Below are positions 1-39,104 of a stretch of 39,104 bases of DNA, in pieces; the first letter of the stretch is position 1, and each line of letters begins with the position of its first letter. Both the position numbers and the translations under genes were made by a program. The notes under the pieces were generated by a model. The model searched no databases. It was not told the DNA's origin and saw only the letters and a list, made by a program, of their open reading frames with translations. Origin of the DNA: a virus; IMG/VR virus record IMGVR_UViG_3300046001_005960, positions 1 through 39,104 of that record; one strand, written 5' to 3'.

Positions 1-345
1 CACCACAGCACACCCACGAACACACAGCACAGCACAGGCACAGCACAGCGCACCCACACACACCCCACACAGGCACAGCACAGGCAACGCACGAAGCACA
101 GGGTGTGCACAGCACAGGCAACGCAACGCAACGCAACGCACAGCACACACCCGCACAGGCAACGCACAGCACACACAGCGAAGCACAGCACAGGCAACGC
201 AGCACAGCACAGCACACCCTTGCCTTGTCTGTGTGTGTGCCTGTGTGCCTGTGCCTGTGTGTGACTCTGTTTACTTATTAACACAGCAAGTGCGTTTGCC
301 TGTGTTTATTGCTGTGTTTCGTGTGTGTGTGCTGTTTTATGAGAA
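1..345. repeat. CA-rich then TG-rich low-complexity region
   Basis: Bases 1 to about 218 are almost free of T and are built from CACA, GCACAG and CCCACA words. From about 220 to 345 the same words appear as their complement (TGTG, GCCTGTG), so the plus strand switches from CA-rich to TG-rich. The two arms could pair imperfectly as a long hairpin or cruciform, and alternating CA/TG can adopt Z-DNA. No convincing gene lies here. It ends in more AT-rich DNA near 265-285 and 335-360. An origin or packaging region is possible because the replication arm begins to the right and, if the genome is circular, the small terminase gene lies to the left; that is inference. Confidence 0.85.
78..201 (+). 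repeat. Four iteron-like 14-bp direct repeats
   Basis: GCACAGGCAACGCA occurs exactly at 78-91, 112-125, 153-166 and 188-201, with start-to-start spacings of 34, 41 and 35 bp. The second copy runs into a tandem array of four ACGCA units (121-140). Such spaced direct repeats resemble iterons bound by replication initiators, but low-complexity DNA can produce repeats by slippage, so the role is inferred. Confidence 0.7.
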
Positions 346-410: not shown

Positions 411-474
411 CAAGATGCTCGATATGTGTTCTATCTGTTTTCGCACTGATTCACCCACACACACACACCCACAC

Positions 475-603
475 ATGAAACGCACCCGCACACAGCACAC
501 ACCCGCACCCGCACAGCATCGCACGTTAGCACGCACAGTCTTTGAATCCGTATTATGCGGACTTATCGGCATCGCGTTTGTCTGCCTCTTTTGGTTCGCA
601 TAA
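475..603 (+). CDS. Small single-TM protein
   Basis: A 42-residue ORF beginning ATGAAACGC directly after a CACACA tract, the same arrangement used by the genes at 1362 and 2044. The N-terminal half is basic and rich in Thr, His and Pro, encoded by CA-rich DNA. Residues about 24-42 form one hydrophobic segment (LCGLIGIAFVCLFWFA) ending at the C-terminus, so a small inner-membrane protein is likely. An upstream ATG at 415 in the same frame would add 20 residues, but the CA-tract context favours 475. No family is recognised. The hydrophobic segment and shared start context make it more than a chance ORF, but support is modest. Confidence 0.45.
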   Translation: MKRTRTQHTPAPAQHRTLARTVFESVLCGLIGIAFVCLFWFA

Positions 604-645
604 CACACACACACCCGCACAGCACACACACAGCACACACACCCG
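604..645 (+). promoter_or_regulatory. CA-multimer leader before the GP88-like gene
   Basis: An uninterrupted ACACAC/CCGCACAGC tract fills the gap between the stop at 603 and the start at 655. No Shine-Dalgarno sequence is present. Similar tracts precede or overlap the starts at 475, 1362 and 2044, so this may be an unstructured translation-enhancing leader. That role is inferred. Confidence 0.4.
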
Positions 646-654
646 CATAACATC

Positions 655-1365
655 ATGAAATATATTACCACCGATAACGCAAAGACTAGCAAAGGCGAAT
701 CTTCAGGCGTTTTAACAGGCATCCTTTATTTGGCACCCGCTAACGAATCCGGCAGGAACATTTGTCCGCACGCGAGCGAAGGATGCCGAATTGCGTGCCT
801 TTTTTCTGCAGGCATGGGAGCATTTGATAACGTAAAACAGGCACGCATTGCAAAGACTGAAGCTTTTCATGCTAATCCTCGGCAATTTGTCGAGGATTTG
901 GCGCACGATATTGCAGCACTGATCAGAAAAGCACATCGCGAGGGTTTATCGCCTGCAATTCGTTTAAATGGCACATCGGATTTGCCTTGGGAGAATCTGG
1001 GTGGCGATTTGAAAGTTAACCTCATGAATCGTTTCCCGGATGTGCCTTTTTACGATTACACAAAAAACCCTGCGCGTGCGCGTGCCTATGCAGAGGGGAA
1101 AATGCCTGCAAACTATTCGCTTACCTTTTCGCGCAGCGAATCCAACGAACCAATTGCGCTGCAAATGCTGCAATTGGGTGTTAACGTCGCAGCTGTGTTC
1201 GCTGTTAAAAAAGGCGATGCATTGCCTGAAACGTGGGGCGGTCGCACTGTTATTGATGGCGATTTAAACGACCTGCGTTTTTTGGATCCAAAAAACAGCG
1301 TGGTGGGTTTACGCAGCAAAGGCAAAGCAAAGAAAGACGAATCCGGTTTTGTTATTTACTCATGA
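655..1365 (+). CDS. GP88/DUF7227-like phage protein
   Basis: A 236-residue protein that resembles the phage gene product 88 family. The family hallmarks I recognise are the N-terminal TxxNxKTxKGE-like segment, a cysteine cluster at C37, C44 and C48 (CPHASEGCRIAC), and RLNGTSDLPWE at about 103-113. The function of the family is not established; the clustered cysteines suggest metal or Fe-S binding. The start at 655 follows a CA tract without an SD site. Its stop overlaps the next start as ATGA, so the genes from 655 to 1921 are probably translationally coupled. Family assignment is from memory of conserved motifs and should be confirmed by profile search. Confidence 0.7.
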   Translation: MKYITTDNAKTSKGESSGVLTGILYLAPANESGRNICPHASEGCRIACLFSAGMGAFDNVKQARIAKTEAFHANPRQFVEDLAHDIAALIRKAHREGLSPAIRLNGTSDLPWENLGGDLKVNLMNRFPDVPFYDYTKNPARARAYAEGKMPANYSLTFSRSESNEPIALQMLQLGVNVAAVFAVKKGDALPETWGGRTVIDGDLNDLRFLDPKNSVVGLRSKGKAKKDESGFVIYS

Positions 1366-1616
1366 AACACACCACACACACACCGGGCCCTTGGGTTTTA
1401 CAAAAAACACCCTCGCGAATTGAAGTTAGGCAAGACGCACAGTCTTCGCTTGCGTTCACTTTAGGCGATGAAGCAAATGCGCGCCTAATCGCCTGCGCGC
1501 CTGAATTGCTGCAAATTGCAGAGGATTTTCTGCTTTTGTCTCAATTGCATGATTGGGAAGGCGCAGCAATTGATAATGCGAAAACTGTGCTTTTAAAAGT
1601 AAAAGGAAAAGCATGA
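1362..1616 (+). CDS. HTPGPW-family phage hypothetical protein
   Basis: 84 residues with the N-terminal HTPGPW motif (residues 6-11) and a central NARLIACAPELLQ segment. This combination is typical of a widespread small phage protein family of unknown function, usually found in early gene clusters. The gene starts ATGAAACACACC, so its first codons continue the CA-repeat theme. It overlaps the upstream gene by ATGA and the downstream gene by ATGA, which indicates coupled translation. The length matches the family, about 70-110 residues. Confidence 0.8.
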   Translation: MKHTTHTPGPWVLQKTPSRIEVRQDAQSSLAFTLGDEANARLIACAPELLQIAEDFLLLSQLHDWEGAAIDNAKTVLLKVKGKA

Positions 1617-1921
1617 GCGCACCCACACCCACGCAGGATTTGGAGCGAATCAAATTTGCTTTGATTCATGCTGCAACGCGATTTGATGCGAAAGAAGCAA
1701 AAAAAGCACATCATAACAAATGGGCGTTGCCTCAGTACTTTGCGCGAATAACTGAGATTTGCGCTGATATTGAGAAAGGCGCAAATGTGCGCGATGCTGT
1801 GATTGCAGCATTCAATGGGCGTTTGCTTCGCGATTGTTTAAAACAATTGAATTTGCCTGAATTGAAAGAAGGCGAACACATAAAGCGCAATTGGTTTTAT
1901 GTGCCTGCGTCTGAAAAATAA
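1613..1921 (+). CDS. Hypothetical early phage protein
   Basis: A 102-residue, mostly helical, charged protein with no motif I can name. A basic, His-containing segment (KKAHHNKWALPQYFARI, about 31-47) precedes an acidic helix (CADIEKGANVRDAVIAAF), a layout I have seen in other phage hypothetical proteins. The first codons (SAPTPTQ) are again CA-rich. Coupled to the previous gene through ATGA. A strong intrinsic terminator lies 26 bp after its stop, so it is the last gene of the first early transcript. Confidence 0.7.
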   Translation: MSAPTPTQDLERIKFALIHAATRFDAKEAKKAHHNKWALPQYFARITEICADIEKGANVRDAVIAAFNGRLLRDCLKQLNLPELKEGEHIKRNWFYVPASEK

Positions 1922-1946
1922 ACAAAGCACAGCACAGCACACAGCA

Positions 1947-1975
1947 CCCTGCCCACATTTGGGCAGGGTTTTTTT
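1947..1975 (+). terminator. Rho-independent terminator
   Basis: An 8-bp perfect stem CCCTGCCC / GGGCAGGG with a 6-nt loop (ACATTT), followed by seven T. Ends the 475-1921 early gene group. Confidence 0.92.
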
Positions 1976-1980
1976 GAACG

Positions 1981-2036
1981 TGCACACAGCACACCCACAC
2001 ACCCACACAGCACAGCACAGCATTCACACACACCCG
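1981..2036 (+). promoter_or_regulatory. CA-multimer leader before gene 2044
   Basis: CACAC/CCCACA/GCACAG words fill the space between the terminator and the start at 2044 and continue into the coding sequence. No SD-like sequence is visible. A promoter must lie between the terminator and 2044 if the gene is expressed separately, but I cannot point to clear -35/-10 boxes in this tract. Confidence 0.35.
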
Positions 2037-2043
2037 TAACAGC

Positions 2044-2271
2044 ATGAAACACAGCACACACACCCACACACACCCACACCCGCAAATTGACACCCCAATT
2101 GATCGCCTTGCCTTGGCTCTTTTTTTGGCAATTTCAGCACCCACGCAGGAAAAGAGCGATCAGGCGTTAGCGTTGGCTAATGAATTTGGGCAGGATTTGG
2201 CACCCTCTGCGATTCGCGAGGCTAAGAAAAAGGCGAAGCTTTTATATATTCACTCACTGGCAAGCACATAA
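2044..2271 (+). CDS. Small early phage protein with CA-encoded N-terminus
   Basis: 75 residues. The first 14 residues (MKHSTHTHTHPHPQ) are encoded by CA repeats and are probably disordered. The rest, DRLALALFLAISAPTQEKSDQALALANEFG and onward, is a helical hairpin-like segment resembling other small phage hypothetical proteins with an ALxLAxxAPTxxxSxQAxxLA pattern. Function unknown. It is a single-gene unit between two intrinsic terminators (1947-1975 and 2311-2342). The repeat-encoded N-terminus could vary in length between relatives. Confidence 0.6.
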   Translation: MKHSTHTHTHPHPQIDTPIDRLALALFLAISAPTQEKSDQALALANEFGQDLAPSAIREAKKKAKLLYIHSLAST

Positions 2272-2355: not shown

Positions 2356-3693
2356 ATGCACACACAAAACCGTTTAGACAAATTAACGGGGGCACTTGCT
2401 TTGCTTGGTGTCCCCTGCGTTGGCGTTGGCGTAACAGAGGGTGCAAACGTCACCCGATTTGAGTTGCAACCTAGCACAGGCTTTCAACTTGAAAAGTTGC
2501 TGCGCGTGGAGCGCAGCGTTGCCTTTTCCCTTGGAGTTTCATCGGTGCGAATAGTTGCGCCGATACCCGACACGTCACTTGTTGGCATAGAGGTGCCACA
2601 AAAGGAGCGCATAAAGGTGCCTTTAGCGGACGTTATGGCAGGGGAAAGTTACAGGGGGGGTGGGGGTGCCTTGCCTTTTTGCCTAGGTGCGCGAATAGGG
2701 GGGGCTTTTCAGGTTGCGGACGTTGCAGAGTTTCCGCATTTGCTGATTGCGGGGGCAACAGGCACAGGAAAAAGCGTTTGCCTTAATTCGCTGATACTTT
2801 CCCTAGTTTGTGGCAGGACGCCTGCACAGTTGCGGCTGGTGCTGATTGACCCCAAGAAAGTGGAGTTTGCGGCCTATGCAAGCCTGCCTCATTTGTTGGT
2901 GCCAGTCATAAAGGACGTGCATAAGGTGCCTTCTTTGCTGAATTGGTTAGTCACTGAAATGCAAAAGCGTTACGACGCATTTGTAATTTCCAAGAGCAGA
3001 AGCATAATTTCCCATAACGAAAAAATAGGGGGGGGTGAAAAGTTGCCGTATATTGTCGTAATTATCGACGAACTTGCTGACCTTATGCTGGCACACAAAA
3101 AGGAGATCGAGGAAAGCATATCACGGCTTGCTTCCTTGGCTCGTGCGGCTGGGATTCACCTCGTATTTGCTACGCAGCGTCCGTCTGTTGGTGTGGTTAC
3201 AGGCGTCATAAAGGCCAACTTCCCTGTACGCATTGCGTTTCGGTGTGCTTCACAGGTCGATGCACGCACCATTTTAGATCGTAAAGGAGCAGAAACGCTG
3301 GCAGGCAAAGGCGATTTTCTATTTCAAGATGGGAGGGGGGGTGACATTTTACGGCTGCAAGGGGCATTTGTCAGTGATGCAGAGGTGGAAAGCATGGTTG
3401 CCAGCGTTTCAACGGTTGCACCCGTCTTCAGCAAGGGGGCAGAAAAGGCTATTGCGTGCGATTTAAGCCAATCGGACAGCAAAGGTGACACAACACCCGT
3501 ATGGTACGATTTGAGTGAAGTTAGGTATGTTATGCGTGAATACGGCTACGCATCTACTGAACTACTTCGCAAAGCGTGCAAATATCCCCTTGAGGTTTCG
3601 CAAGCCTGCATAGATGAAATGACGAGGCGGGGCATAATTGCAGAGGGTGAACCCCTCGCAGCTCGGCAAGTATTACTTAACCTGAACTTCTAA
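2356..3693 (+). CDS. Soluble FtsK/SpoIIIE-type DNA translocase
   Basis: 445 residues from the ATG at 2356. The motor carries Walker A GATGTGKS at about 133-140 and a Walker B strand VVIIDELADL at about 234-243, with FtsK family signatures such as LVLIDPKKVEF and FATQRPSVGVVTGVIKANFP. The C-terminus (about 390-432) resembles the winged-helix gamma domain that reads polar sequences in FtsK. There is no N-terminal membrane domain, so it is cytosolic, unlike host FtsK. The likely role is ATP-driven movement along phage or host DNA, for example resolving concatemers, assisting recombination or clearing proteins; the exact role is unknown. The gene contains several unusual runs of G. It is followed 1 bp later by a Cro-like regulator. 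Confidence 0.9.
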   Translation: MHTQNRLDKLTGALALLGVPCVGVGVTEGANVTRFELQPSTGFQLEKLLRVERSVAFSLGVSSVRIVAPIPDTSLVGIEVPQKERIKVPLADVMAGESYRGGGGALPFCLGARIGGAFQVADVAEFPHLLIAGATGTGKSVCLNSLILSLVCGRTPAQLRLVLIDPKKVEFAAYASLPHLLVPVIKDVHKVPSLLNWLVTEMQKRYDAFVISKSRSIISHNEKIGGGEKLPYIVVIIDELADLMLAHKKEIEESISRLASLARAAGIHLVFATQRPSVGVVTGVIKANFPVRIAFRCASQVDARTILDRKGAETLAGKGDFLFQDGRGGDILRLQGAFVSDAEVESMVASVSTVAPVFSKGAEKAIACDLSQSDSKGDTTPVWYDLSEVRYVMREYGYASTELLRKACKYPLEVSQACIDEMTRRGIIAEGEPLAARQVLLNLNF

Positions 3694-4215: not shown

Positions 4216-4227
4216 CCAACACCCCAC

Positions 4228-4262
4228 AAAAAACCCCCACTTTTAACGGTGGGGGTTTTTTT
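4228..4262. terminator. Bidirectional intrinsic terminator
   Basis: A 13-bp perfect stem AAAAAACCCCCAC / GTGGGGGTTTTTT with an 8-nt loop. It carries a T run on the plus strand and, by symmetry, a T run on the minus strand. It separates the plus-strand HNH gene from the converging Dps-like gene. Confidence 0.93.
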
Positions 4263-4265
4263 GCG

Positions 4266-4820: not shown

Positions 4821-5042
4821 TTACCCCAATGCCCCACAAACGCTGTCCTGTGCGTTTTGCGGGCCACAACTGCGCTGTTGCGTGTCTTGCGCTCCACCAA
4901 TGCCAACAGCCGTGCCATTGTCACAGGCCCAGCTTGTAAATCCAGCAAAGGTGCATTTTCCAATTTGGCATTGGTAGGGGGGGGTATCAAATTGCTGCTG
5001 TGTGCCGTAGTCTGGCTCAGTTTGGTCGTATTCGTTACGCAT
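4821..5042 (-). CDS. Small Cys-containing hypothetical protein
   Basis: A 73-residue ORF, acidic at the N-terminus (RNEYDQTEPDYGTQQQ), then with spaced cysteines (QCQIGKC, WACDNG, RSCGPQNAQDSVCG) and two glycine-rich turns. No family is recognised. The hydrophilic composition and spaced cysteines look more protein-like than the overlapping plus-strand frame at 4788-5063. It points in the same direction as the Dps-like gene, and the repeated operator-like sites lie between the two. Coding status is uncertain. Confidence 0.4.
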   Translation of the reverse strand: MRNEYDQTEPDYGTQQQFDTPPYQCQIGKCTFAGFTSWACDNGTAVGIGGAQDTQQRSCGPQNAQDSVCGALG

Positions 5043-6211: not shown

Positions 6212-6340
6212 TTTGTCCCCGGTAAGGACGTAAACCAGTACCCTCCGACGCTGCTGGCAGCGGTGCGAAAATATACCAGCAACTCTTTCTGACGGCATTG
6301 TGCCACAGATAAAACAACAACAACCCAAACTGATAAAAAC

Positions 6341-6760
6341 ATGGCTAACATTAACGATGCGTTCCCTAGCAAGTACCTGAGTGCTTCCGATCTCGGAGGT
6401 CGTTCAGCGACAGTAACGATTGCCAATGCTCGTATTGAGCAGATTGGCAAAGGTGCAGAGGCAGGCCCAAAGATTGTGCTGCAATTTGTGGGTAAACAAA
6501 AGCTGTTTGTCTGTAACAAGACTAACGCTAAAACCATTGCCTCGCTGCATGGTGAGGACACTGATGGTTGGCTTGGCAAAGCCATTACGATTGCTCCTCG
6601 TGAGGTAGAGTTCCAAGGCAACATGGTCTGGAGCATTCGTGTATCGCTGCAACGTCCTGTTGAGGCTGAACCTGTCCAAGTGGCACCTAAAGCTGTTAAA
6701 GCAGTTCGTGCGGCTGCTGCACCTGCGCCACAAGCCGACCACGACGACATCCCGTTCTAA
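6341..6760 (+). CDS. SSB-like OB-fold phage protein
   Basis: 139 residues. The N-terminus (MANINDAFPSKYLSASDL) and the central KTNAKTIASLHGEDTDGWLGKAI segment match a common phage family found beside replication genes and often left unannotated. The protein ends in an Ala/Pro-rich linker and DHDDIPF, the acidic tip used by bacterial SSBs to recruit partners. I therefore infer a single-strand DNA-binding role. It starts after an A/C-rich leader (ACAACAACAACCC) without an SD. The stop overlaps the next start by one base (TAATG). Confidence 0.75.
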   Translation: MANINDAFPSKYLSASDLGGRSATVTIANARIEQIGKGAEAGPKIVLQFVGKQKLFVCNKTNAKTIASLHGEDTDGWLGKAITIAPREVEFQGNMVWSIRVSLQRPVEAEPVQVAPKAVKAVRAAAAPAPQADHDDIPF

Positions 6761-7563
6761 TGAACATCATCGAAATTGACGGCATTGATACCGTCAGCAT
6801 CAGCAGCACAGCGGAAGCACGAGCAAATCGTGACAGGCTGATTGGGTTGGCAGGTACGGTGGCATTGGTGTCTGACCAGACCCAAGCTACTGTTGCTGCT
6901 AACGTGCTGAAGGAAATCAAAGGCATGACACGCTTGATCGAGGCTGCACGCACTACGGTGAAGGCACCTGTGTTGGAGCAGGGTAAGAAGATTGATGCTC
7001 TAGCTAAAGAACTCACGTTCAAGCTAGAGGCTGAAGCTACCCGCATTGGCATGGTGCTAGGCACCTACCAAGCCGAACAAGAGCGCATTGCTGAAGAAAT
7101 CCGACGCAAAGCATGGGATGAGGAGCAACGCATCCTGCGTGCTGCACAAGAGGCAGAAGAAAAGGCTGCTGCTGAAGCCCGTGCAAAGGCTGCTGCGTTG
7201 GCCCTAAAAGAGTCACGAGCACGGTCTGAGGCAAAGGCTGCTGATTATGCTGCACAAGCTGAGGCTGCACAGCTTATGGCTGACGCTGAAGCTGAGGCAC
7301 GTCAGAAGCAGGTGGAGCAAGAAATGTTGGCAAATCGTGTAAACGCTTTGTCCAAGATTGCTGCGAAGCCTGAAGGCATTGCTACTCGTAAGGAGATCAA
7401 GTTTGAGATCATGGATATTGTGGCACTTTACGAAGCTGCCCCGTATCTGGTGACGCTCACTCCTAACAATGCTGCGCTCAAGAGTGCCTTAAAAGGGCTG
7501 CAAAAGGGGCAATCACTACCGGGTGTTAAACACTGGGAAGAAGCTGCCGTAACCGTTCGATAA
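6760..7563 (+). CDS. Coiled-coil phage protein adjacent to SSB-like gene
   Basis: 267 residues. Residues about 85-205 form a long Ala/Glu/Lys/Arg-rich helix (for example EEIRRKAWDEEQRILRAAQ), a clear coiled coil. It is flanked by an N-terminal helical domain (GMTRLIEAARTTVKAPVLEQGKKIDALAKEL) and a compact C-terminal domain that ends in LPGVKHWEEAAVTVR. I recognise this architecture from phage early regions next to recombination or SSB genes (DUF1351-like), but its function is not known. The one-base overlap with the SSB-like gene suggests coupled expression. Confidence 0.65.
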   Translation: MNIIEIDGIDTVSISSTAEARANRDRLIGLAGTVALVSDQTQATVAANVLKEIKGMTRLIEAARTTVKAPVLEQGKKIDALAKELTFKLEAEATRIGMVLGTYQAEQERIAEEIRRKAWDEEQRILRAAQEAEEKAAAEARAKAAALALKESRARSEAKAADYAAQAEAAQLMADAEAEARQKQVEQEMLANRVNALSKIAAKPEGIATRKEIKFEIMDIVALYEAAPYLVTLTPNNAALKSALKGLQKGQSLPGVKHWEEAAVTVR

Positions 7564-7573
7564 CACACAAACT

Positions 7574-8143
7574 ATGTCCGACAAACCTAAGATCATTGTA
7601 ATTGAGTCTGTGAGCCGCACCCGCCGCCACATCGTCATTGAATACACGCAAGGGGATGAAACCCGTAGTGTGAAAAGCAACGAGAACCCGTTGCCTGAGT
7701 TTAATGCCGCTTTGGATGCGCTGATGCCATTGCTGACTCGCATCATTGAGGCAGGTGATGGCTACGATACAAACCTGAAGATTGCTGGTATTACGATGGG
7801 TACTTTGCGTGATGTACGCACGGTACGCATCCATGCCAAAAAGTCTTTAGCTTTGTGTGGTAAAATGCTGTCCCTCGATACGCCGCCTGTGCTTTTAAGC
7901 ACACCGACAACTGAGGGGGGTATCACTGAACCAATCGAAGCCAGTGAAGCTGAGTTGATTGAGGCTGCGTTAGAAGAAGCCAAGCGTTACGTCTTAGGTG
8001 AGCGTGCCCAAGGTACGCTTGATTTGGACGATGATGAGGATGAGGAGGAGTACGACCACGACCCTCTATCTGACAACACCGAGCCGTTACCAATGGGTGA
8101 CGTAGGTAAACCTGCTAAGAAGAAGAAAACCAAAAGCGAATAA
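7574..8143 (+). CDS. Phage hypothetical protein with acidic tail
   Basis: 189 residues. A folded N-terminal domain of about 110 residues has a beta-rich start (KIIVIESVSRTRRHIVIEYTQ) followed by FNAALDALMPLLTRIIEA and a predicted strand (LKIAGITMGT). It resembles a phage family of unknown function found in replication regions. The C-terminus (about 145-189) has a very acidic stretch (LDLDDDEDEEEYDHDP), then a Lys-rich end, and is probably disordered. It starts after TAACACACAAACT, an A/C-rich leader with no SD. Confidence 0.65.
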   Translation: MSDKPKIIVIESVSRTRRHIVIEYTQGDETRSVKSNENPLPEFNAALDALMPLLTRIIEAGDGYDTNLKIAGITMGTLRDVRTVRIHAKKSLALCGKMLSLDTPPVLLSTPTTEGGITEPIEASEAELIEAALEEAKRYVLGERAQGTLDLDDDEDEEEYDHDPLSDNTEPLPMGDVGKPAKKKKTKSE

Positions 8144-8810: not shown

Positions 8811-8823
8811 TACACACACAACA

Positions 8824-14833: not shown

Positions 14834-17800
14834 TTAGTTGGATTTTTCGAGGGCCGCGACACGTTGGCGAAGTGCTTTCAATTCCGCAACCAGAATAGGA
14901 ATGAGTGCCGAGTCACTGCGCTGCCATTGTTTCGTAATGGTTTCTGTGTCTTCGTCACCTACGCTCACTGCACCGATATGAGCAAACATTGGGTCTGCGG
15001 CGTGTTCTTCTTGAGCAATAAACCCTACGACGTTCTTGCCGTTCTCATCGCTGTTCTTCCAGTCAAACACGCGAGGTTTAAGACTATCAATTAAACGGCC
15101 AGAATCCGTGAAGTCGCGGAGGTTTTCTTTGAGGCGACCGTCTGAGGTGGTGTTGTAAACAACAGCGTTGGTCGTGGTGACGCGGGTGATGGAGCCGATG
15201 CCCGCCCCGTCTGATTTCCGAAAAGCGGCGAACACTGCGTTTGATTGATCGGCGGAATCCTTGAGCGAAATGCCGTCGATTGTGTTGCCCGTGAACGTGG
15301 TGCGGATGCTGGCTGCTTCGGTCGCTCCGCCGACCGCGAGTTGACCCGTCACCGCGAGGCCTCCACCTCCGGGCATGGACACTGCACCCGTACCGCTGAT
15401 AACTAAGTCATTCCTGCCGTCAGTGGTGTTACGGATTGCAAAGTCACCAAATGACAAGAAGTCCGTACCAATTGAATAGCTATCCGTACTTGAACCTGTG
15501 CCGGTAAATGCTATGCGCGGAGTCTGTTTGGTGATTTCTAGGTTTCCACTAAACGTCCCAGTCCCTGTAACAGCGAGTCCGGTGGAGGAGAAGGTGCCAA
15601 CCGTTGTGCCATTTGGAACCTGAACATTTACTGAAGTTGCACCTTTAACATAAAGGTTGGTTCCGTTGCCGCCAATAATTGTTGTACCGCTTATACGATA
15701 ACCATTATCAGCCGCAGTTGCGTTAAAATAATCACCAGCGGTAACAATTCCCGTCGCGCTCAACGCGCCAGTGACGGCGACTGAACTTGCAATAAGTGAA
15801 ATTGGATTTGCTCCAGCGTTAATCTGAAGGCCCGTAGATGTTTCTGTGGTAAAGAAATAAGTGCGACTATTTGTAGTGTCGCGAAGCGAGAAGCCTTGTC
15901 CCGCTGCTCCGCTAAAACCAACTCCCACTCCCTGCGCCCCAGCGGCACCTTGAAAAAGAAAAGTGAAATTGCCTTGTGCTGGCGTCGTCGCGCCCACCGT
16001 GCCGTTGATGTTGATGCTGGCCGTGCCTGTTAGGTTCGTGACCGTGCCACTTGTAGGCGTGCCCAGCGCACCATTAAACAGCACCGGAGCACCCGCGCTG
16101 CCAGTATTAACCGCCAGTGCCGTAGCGATGCCCGTGCCGAGACCTGAGACGCCCGTGCTGATGGGCAGACCTGTGCAGCTCGATAGCGTGCCGCTGGATG
16201 GTGTGCCCAATGGGCCGCCAGAATAAAGCAACGTTGAAGATGCGTCTGGCAGCGTGAACGTGCGTTCTGCGGTCGTAGGGCCAGAGAACTTCGTGAAGCC
16301 GTTTCCGGTGCCGCCATTCGATGAAGCAATGATGCCAGTGATACCCACCGTCACCGAAGCGTTGCCGTTCGTTACTGCGATGTTCGTACCAGCCGTAAGC
16401 GTAGCAGCTTTCCAAAGACTGTTAGTCGCATCGTAAACGAGCAACGCACCAGCAGCAGGCGGCGTGGTGATCTGCACGTCATGCAGTTCGTTTAGCTCAT
16501 AGCCATTCTGCACGCGCACATATAACTCGCCGTTGCCGTTGTTCGCCTTCTCGACGATGCCGACATACACGAGATGATTAGGAGCGTAAGGCTTGACGTT
16601 CGTTAGCGACCCAGCCGTTGCACCGAGATAGAGTTGGTCGCCTTCTGTGTAGCTTCCGAGCGTCAGACCATCAACGACGCCGACTAGCGTGATCGTTCCG
16701 GTGCCGTTGGCCGCGATGCTTGCGTCGCTCACGATGCCGACCGTTTTGGCCGAGGTCGCGTCTCCCGTATTATACGCGAGTTTTACGCTCATGCGATTGC
16801 CCGTGGCACCAAACGCATATACGACTTGCCCTCTGGTGATGCTTATCGACTCGGCGTTCGTAACCGTAGCAACTAGCGTCTCCGCTGTCTGCGCGCCAGT
16901 CGTGGCAATCGAGATGCCGCCCGACGAGTTCGTGATCGTGACGCCCGTGCCAGCCGTAAGGTTTGCAACCGTGTATCCGGTGCCGTTACCGATTAGGAGC
17001 TGACCGTTGGCAGGCGTGGTCGAAACGCCCGTGCCACCGTCCGCAACCGCGAGATCGGTTATGCCAGTGATGCTGCCACCCGTAATGGATACGTTGTTAG
17101 AGTTTTGGGTGCTCATCGTGCCCAAACCAGTGATGTCGGTGTTGGGGATGGTGCTAGATGCCGTCAGAGCTGCCGTTCCGCTGCCATAAACGTAACCTGT
17201 CAGCGTGGAGGCACCAGTGCCGCCATCTGCCACCAAAAGGTCTGTAATGCCCGTTATATTGCCTCCGGTGATGGCAACCGTGTTGGCATTCTGGGTACTC
17301 ATGCTGCCAAGCCCAGTAATGTCCGTGTTGGGAATAGTACCTGATGCAGTAAATGCTAAGGTGCCATTGCCTTTGATGTAGCCAGTTAAAGTCGATGCAC
17401 CCGTACCACCATCAGCAACCGCTAAATCAGTAATGCCCGCAACTGAGCCACCAGTAATGGATACGTTGTTGGAGTTTTGCACGCTCATCGTGCCTAACTG
17501 AAGGTTATCACGAGCGGTAGATGGAGATACCAAGTCAGCCAAGTTAGCAGCCTTAGTCAGTTTCTCACTGTCCAGCTCATCAATTGCAGCCTGCACGTTG
17601 GTAGCTGCCACGTTGCCCGTAGCCGTGTAGGTAATCTGCACAGCAGAGTAATCACCGCTTGCTGCCGTAACCACACCGAGGCGACCAAACACCGAGGCCA
17701 CAGCATCCGTGTTATCAACCTTTTCCCATGCGGTGCCGTTGCTGATAATCCAGTCACCCACCTCAAAGCTAATGGAAAACTGCGTACCTGCTACCGACAC

Positions 17801-19234
17801 AACGTAGTAATCACCTTGGGTTGTGGATGCAGGTGGGTTAGCCAATGCGGGGTTGTTGGTGCTGGCATTCCATGTGCCCATGTAAGACAACTGACCAAGC
17901 ACGCTATCTGGAATTTGCGTCAGTGGCACTTTACCACCTGCATCAAGCGTAGCCACACCGTTAGCGTTGGCTTTCTCAATTGCAGGTATCTTAGCCGCAA
18001 GGTCAGTAACAAGATTGGTTACTTGAGACTGAGCAATCTGGATGTTGTTAGCCGAAATGCTCGTAACACGACCTTTGCTATCAACCGTGGTGGTAGAGGA
18101 GCTGGATACGCTGCCATAGGTGCCAGCAGCTACGTTGGTGGTGGTAAGTGTCGGGTTGGGGTAAGTGCCCGTTAAATCGCCACCAGCAGCACCCGTAGGG
18201 GTACGCGAATCAGTAAAGCGTGGGTCATCACCAGCCGCAACCGTGTTGGCAGTAGTGCCTACGTTAAGCGTAGAGGAATTGCCCAAGCCCGTAATGTCTG
18301 TGTTGGGTATGGTGCCCAAAGCAGTAAAAGCCAAGGTGCCGCTACCTTTGATGTACCCAGTCAACGTGGATGCACCTGTACCACCGTCTGCCACAGCCAG
18401 ATCGGTGATGCCAGTGATGTTACCACCCGTGATGGATACCGTGTTGGAGTTCTGCGTAGCAATTGTACCAAGACCCAAGTTGGTGCGGGCATCGGGTGCG
18501 GTAGAGGCACCCGTACCACCGTCTGCAATGGCAAGGTCAGTGATACCCGTAATGTTACCACCCGTGATCGAGATGGTACTAGCATTCTGAGTGCTCATCG
18601 TACCAAGGCCCGTAATGTCGGTATTTGGTATTGTACCTGATGCCGTCAATGCTGAGGTGCCGTTACCCTTCACATACCCCGTAAGCGTAGATGCGCCAGT
18701 ACCACCATCAGACACAGCTAAGTCAGTAATGCCAGTAATGTTACCGCCCGTAATGGCGACAGCGTTAGCATTCTGAGTCGCAATTGTACCCAAGCCCGTA
18801 ATGTCGGTGTTGGGTATGGTAGCCGATGCGGTCAAAGCAGAGGTACCATTACCTTTAACATACCCCGTAAGGGTTGAAGCACCTGTGCCACCATCAGCCA
18901 CTGCTAGATCAGTGATACCCGTAATGTTGCCACCCGTAATTGCTACGGTGTTGGCATTCTGCACACTCATCGTACCCAGCCCCGTAATGTCCGTGCTAGG
19001 CACCGTAGGTGATGCCGTAAAGGTAGCTGCACCGTTACCCTTAACATACCCAGTAAGGCTAGTAGCATTTGTACCACCTTTGCTGACTGGCAACGTACCA
19101 TTAACAAACCCAACACCATTTGCGATGGTGTTAAGGTTGTCCGTGTTGGTGAGGAAATTCATAGGGGCAACTAATGCCCCATTGCTGGTGGTAGCCGTAA
19201 CAGATTGATTAAGAGGAGTAGATGGGATGCTCAT
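14834..19234 (-). CDS. Giant repetitive tail fibre with S74 chaperone domain
   Basis: 1466 residues from the ATG at 19234, 1 nt after the upstream stop. Residues about 50-360 and 600-800 hold repeats of a 62-residue unit built around [19 protein letters not shown] and [15 protein letters not shown]. Between them is a non-repeated region ([12 protein letters not shown]-like, [16 protein letters not shown]) typical of fibre shafts. The C-terminal 105 residues are a peptidase S74 intramolecular chaperone ([10 protein letters not shown] near 1364, [15 protein letters not shown]) ending in a coiled coil. S74 domains trimerise and then cut themselves off mature fibres. This is the main receptor-binding candidate. 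Confidence 0.92.
17000..17500 (-). repeat. Tail fibre repeat block 2
   Basis: Three more copies of the roughly 186-bp coding repeat (GGTGAST / PNTDITGLG units), separated from block 1 by non-repeated coding sequence. The DNA copies are similar but diverged. Confidence 0.7.
18270..19085 (-). repeat. Tail fibre repeat block 1
   Basis: About five tandem copies of a roughly 186-bp unit encoding the 62-residue repeat; one copy is shortened ([19 protein letters not shown]). The similarity at DNA level could allow recombination that changes fibre length. Confidence 0.75.
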
Positions 19235-39031: not shown

Positions 39032-39104
39032 AAGTTCGCATGATTTGCTGGATTTACCTGTTATGGCATATAGGAAACTTTATGGCTAGCTTTAAGTTGG
39101 GTTC
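39032..39104. other. Non-coding right end, upstream of terminase
   Basis: No gene is seen in the last 73 bp. In lambda-like phages cos lies just upstream of the small terminase gene, so a cos-like site could lie here or continue across a circular junction into 1-345. No terminal repeat shared with the left end was found by eye. Confidence 0.35.

Follow-up and report, generated by a model that had tools for sequence, protein, structure and literature searches.

The window, which is the entire 39,104-base virus record, belongs to a tailed phage. Genes for a phrog_15 (gpA-type) terminase, the portal and the capsid lie on the minus strand, and the early genes are on the plus strand. No named phage is close to the window phage, and its terminase is less than 60% identical to those of named phages. 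In about 690 sampled genomes from three phyla, the best terminase match was about 49% identical and consisted of short pieces only, and a search for GP88 in genome contigs yielded no close host. FtsK was rejected as a host indicator because it is too universal to discriminate. Among IMG/VR contigs, near relatives (L075-L082) cover the right arm, and two others (L083 and L084) extend over the left arm as far as about 4.4 kb. No close relative among these contigs reaches into the left 4.4 kb; the rest has relatives that are 79-100% identical. Two unique left-end anchors, together with the protein encoded at 1613 and the FtsK protein, had no matches in viral contigs. An 18-mer of the CA block matched only L085, where the match lies in a tail gene and is due to chance, and L085 was discarded as a left-end relative.

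The left end begins with a CA(G)-rich spacer block (positions 1-215, plus strand, like the features up to 2271 and the leaders at 6341, 7574 and 8824 described below) with an A+C content of 0.78 and imperfect repeats such as CACAGGCAACGCA. We found no plausible gene start in this block on either strand. It is followed by a TG-rich block (222-345) that is partly complementary to it. A CA tract (446-474) then precedes the ATG at 475, which opens a small ORF (475-603) of 42 aa. The tract is either a leader or, given that the frame is open back to an in-frame ATG at 415, possibly coding, in which case the ORF has 62 aa. After its CA-encoded N-terminus come hydrophobic residues resembling a membrane helix, and the ORF has no family match. 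A 51-nt CA-rich spacer or leader (604-654; C 0.49, A 0.39, G 0.08) separates this ORF from a GP88-family gene (PF17338; 655-1365), downstream of whose start the CA fraction is 0.00. Two contigs, L003 and L004, carry GP88-family genes 90% identical to this one at the protein level. Their terminase is different, so it is likely that the GP88 gene has been exchanged between phages.

The next gene (1362-1616) belongs to phrog_1273, and its start overlaps the preceding stop as ATGA. It is followed by a gene without family assignment (1613-1921), which likewise overlaps the previous stop and is preceded by an SD-like AAGGA (AAAAGGAAAAGC). A CA-rich spacer (1922-2043) flanks an intrinsic terminator (1946-1975) on both sides and leads to a 75-aa ORF (2044-2271) with a CA-encoded N-terminus, MKHSTHTHTHPHPQ. 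A scan of positions 1-2500 for sigma-70 promoters found none. Beyond this region, 2356-3693 encodes a phage-borne ATPase of the FtsK/SpoIIIE type that contains an FtsK alpha domain and whose best matches, in phages and bacterial chromosomes, are about 40-50% identical, with no close viral relative. Much farther along, a gene for a 1466-aa protein (14834-19234) contains a 186-nt tandem repeat, present in three copies at 18501-19078 with 76% matches.

The first-pass annotation had read the CA tracts at the starts at 475, 655, 1362 and 2044 as taking the place of Shine-Dalgarno (SD) sites. The tracts are present, and all four starts indeed lack an SD site. However, the tract at 475 may be part of a coding sequence, as noted above, and the start at 1362 has no CA tract upstream, where the sequence is gaatccggttttgttatttactcATG. 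Its CA run lies inside the gene and encodes HTPGPW. The protein matches the phrog_1273 profile with E=1.5e-9 over residues 1-83, that is, over the whole protein including the N-terminal TPGPW motif, and related proteins in L149, L148 and L150 have TKHTPGPW, YTPGPW and FTKGPW at this position. A motif conserved in this family of phage proteins, [H/Y]TPGPW, accounts for the CA run at 1362.

The tracts themselves are real and far beyond chance, but they do not extend past the left ~2.3 kb. CACA words accumulate there, with 43 in the first 500 bases compared with about 2 per 500 bases elsewhere. A/C-only or CA-rich tracts occur at 452-475, 602-616 (and on to ~654), 1365-1384, 1620-1632, 1990-2009 and 2055-2081. 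Counted per 40 nt on each side, the five left starts have 7.4 CACA/ACAC words, against 0.3 for other ATGs.

To separate starts from their surroundings, we split the left 2.3 kb by category and measured the fraction of bases lying within CACA/ACAC. In the 40 nt that precede the left starts the fraction is 0.53, and it is also 0.53 in the 1-215 block, which has no gene start. It is 0.44 in 1922-2003, a stretch located mostly past a stop codon and around the terminator, and 0.30 in the first 15 codons. In gene bodies it is 0.03, the same as in the rest of the window. Because CA is dense in spacers and some N-termini and at background level in gene bodies, it marks lightly constrained sequence. 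The left-end CA is therefore a mark of noncoding DNA generally, not of gene starts, and the expected enrichment of starts over the CA-richness of the left 2.2 kb is largely absent.

This distribution bears on the idea that the tracts are true translation enhancers of the CA-multimer or ACA-motif type, selected at the starts of early genes. They could be, for instance, loading sites for the ribosome or S1 that help the phage to outcompete host mRNAs. CA multimers downstream of starts boost expression in E. coli, to a degree that grows with repeat number (PMC4611024), and ACA motifs close to the start increase translation (PMC3879156). Moreover, CA occurs on both sides of the 475 and 2044 starts, and after position 440 it is always on the sense strand. 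We nevertheless consider selected enhancers unlikely, given that start-free spacers are equally CA-dense, a protein motif accounts for the CA run at 1362, the other 46 starts have no CACA excess and the tract is missing in all 23 compared GP88 orthologues.

The A/C bias is also not limited to leaders, since the spacers between stop codons and terminators at 1922-1975, 2272-2345 and 4216-4263 are A/C-rich and G-poor before the hairpin. C-rich, G-poor untranslated spacers might load Rho and in this way keep transcription units apart, and C is far above G in the untranslated stretches 604-654 and 1922-2043, the latter with an intrinsic terminator. Rho, however, prefers pyrimidine-C, which differs from CA, and 604-654 directly precedes a gene that must be transcribed, making this role hardly credible. 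A separate peculiarity of the early arm is that poly-G runs of 6-8 occur, on its plus strand only, at 2654, 2698, 3028, 3335, 4977, 5988 and 7915. Their contexts are alike (TAGGGGGGG, GAGGGGGG), and runs of 6 or more Cs are absent. The run length is the same in L083/L084 at 5988 and 7915, and is 8 versus 7 at 4977. In total, the runs are near chance for one strand (7 vs 6.3), and only their clustering is notable.

The CA of the 1-215 block raises the question of a function in DNA. Together with the TG-rich block at 222-345, this block can pair into a long but imperfect hairpin (MFE -141.7 kcal/mol; z -3.9 vs dinucleotide shuffles). At the opposite end (39095-39104), the window and the contigs L075, L081 and L079 all stop beyond the terminase small-subunit gene, at points only about 6 bases apart, and their last 3-4 bases differ. 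Given that these stops nearly coincide, the CA block would be at a genome end or an assembly break, and the coinciding ends suggest either a physical end of the genome or that assembly broke off in all of them at the CA block. Random ends like those of Mu were rejected, as there is no transposase among the proteins checked. The CA/TG block could thus be a DNA-level element, such as a terminus, a packaging site or a replication site, from which the CA of the downstream spacers expanded. The repeats and the strong hairpin would fit such an element, as would the near-coincident contig stops on the other side and, if the ends join, the position of the block, which would then have the terminase small-subunit gene on one side and the early genes on the other. 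On the other hand, no shared end repeat was seen, the contig ends may be mere assembly breaks at low-complexity sequence, and we found no relative that carries the block. We regard a DNA-level element as possible but rather unlikely.

A more trivial origin of the left 2.3 to 4.4 kb would be a chimera or an error in assembling the contig end. Such an error would account for a left region without close relatives beside a remainder with relatives 79-100% identical, and the contig end is of low complexity. However, a terminase adjoining GP88 recurs in L003, the GP88 and phrog_1273 genes are intact with a codon usage that a window-trained model accepts, and there is no perfect inverted copy of the amplification-chimera type. 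Misassembly is accordingly highly improbable.

The start regions of the remaining genome follow a different and quieter pattern. Gene starts were called with a simple codon model, and 46 of them lie outside the left 2.3 kb. Defining an SD word as AGGA, GGAG or GAGG at -18..-5, we found one at 9 of 46 starts (20%), as compared to 6% of random positions, and none at the other 37. SD use is therefore low but not nil, as 20% is still above the chance level. In positions -5..-1, G makes up 7% rather than 24%. Per 40 nt, G is depleted both upstream (7.3 vs 10.1, a value that none of 2000 controls reached) and downstream (7.4 vs 9.8) of the 46 starts, while A is elevated (13.2 vs 10.1). The mean MFE of the -30..+30 region is -6.4 kcal/mol for starts and -12.1 kcal/mol for other ATGs (p=8e-14). 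The genome-wide rule is few SD sites together with weakly folded start regions that are depleted of G and rich in A. With MFEs of 0.0, -0.8 and -0.7 kcal/mol, the starts at 655, 475 and 2044 are the extreme of the genome and show essentially no folding.

CACA words, by contrast, are not part of this rule. Upstream of the 46 starts there are 22, where mononucleotide-shuffled leaders lead one to expect 24 (p=0.66), and downstream there are 25, with 32 expected from mononucleotide-shuffled controls (p=0.87). The proposal of a genome-wide CA design of the early genes is refuted, because the number of CACA words at other starts does not exceed what their A/C composition leads one to expect. The three leaders thought to be weaker instances of that design, at 6341 (6301-6340; acaacaacaacccaaactgataaaaac), 7574 (7564-7573, between the stop at 7563 and the ATG) and 8824 (8811-8823; tacacacacaaca), are A/C-rich and SD-less, but they reflect G-depletion and not a CA motif. 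L083 and L084 have the leaders at 7574 and 8824 in unchanged form, and the one at 6341 is one ACA unit shorter in L083 with its A/C-richness kept.

Leaders of related GP88 genes lead to the same conclusion. In the 40 nt upstream of the start, the GP88 gene of the window has 14 CACA words, whereas 23 relatives have 0-4 (mean 0.6), so the CA tract is not conserved at these orthologous starts. In the L003 gene that is 90% identical to the one at 655, the leader is gaaacaaagaaacaaaaaaacaaaATG, and the GP88-gene leaders of both L003 and L004 are A/C-rich with the CA tract absent. The mean MFE at the 23 orthologue starts is -2.7, versus -9.7 at other ATGs. To judge from these sequences, what is conserved across GP88-gene starts is predicted openness, not CA. 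We also considered that the CA-rich unstructured spacers of the left early module form a coordinated translation device for an SD-poor host, unlike the A-rich leaders of the relatives, which seems to us very unlikely.

We think it probable that the phage relies on ordinary SD-independent initiation through unstructured leaders, which here runs over locally CA-rich spacer DNA. Most initiation would then be independent of SD sites, with G-depleted, A-rich start regions expected to be unfolded on both sides of the ATG. In such regions, the 30S subunit could load on the single-stranded leader and find the start codon, and ribosomes may use the unfolded leaders with the help of protein S1. The CA tracts before 475, 655 and 2044 represent the extreme of unfoldedness, since RNA made only of C and A cannot pair with itself. 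CA would then be a local noncoding property of the left 2.3 kb that spills into the N-termini of genes, rather than a dedicated start signal, and its simplest origin would be repeat expansion in lightly constrained spacer. Two observations count against this explanation. SD words are still above chance, and downstream of ~440, the CA spacers always have CA on the sense strand, never TG, which pure drift would not require.

What survives of the reading of CA as a substitute for SD sites is thus a weaker and more general statement, in that most starts are SD-less, G-poor and unfolded, but CA is not specific to them. Two easily confused things are set apart here, a conspicuous spacer repeat and a quieter real rule of G-poor, unfolded starts. 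Anyone who took the repeat for a start signal would be misled in gene calling and in expression design, while start folding can serve as a guide when SD-poor phages are annotated.

Several known systems are relevant. In E. coli, downstream CA multimers have a stimulating effect on expression (Martin-Farmer and Janssen 1999, reviewed in PMC4611024), and by analogy the CA leaders at 475, 655 and 2044 are probably good for translation, although CA itself is not established as the signal. The phage resembles the E. coli case in having CA repeats just after the starts at 475, 1362 and 2044. It differs in that the repeats at 1362 encode a protein motif, 655 has no downstream CA and start-free spacers are equally CA-rich.

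Bacteria in which SD sites are scarce despite an intact anti-SD include some Verrucomicrobia and most Bacteroidota (PMC10783764). The low SD usage of the phage would fit such a host, but the phage is less extreme than these bacteria, with SD 4-mers at 20% of starts, or 24% by the method of our phylum comparison. In that comparison, whose crude start calls make it indicative only, the sampled Verrucomicrobiota have 32%, Pseudomonadota 36% and Bacteroidota 21%.

In non-SD genes, matching base biases upstream and downstream of the start prevent folding (Nakagawa et al. 2017, PMC5397173). This bias was described for cellular genomes, and here it concerns a phage, which has the same A-up, G-down bias on both sides of the ATG. 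Finally, unfolded start regions were reported to be necessary and sufficient for SD-independent initiation (Scharff et al. 2011, PMC3121790). The phage differs from that system in that three of its leaders are CA repeats. As in that system, its starts mostly lack an SD word and have low folding, while internal ATGs fold normally.
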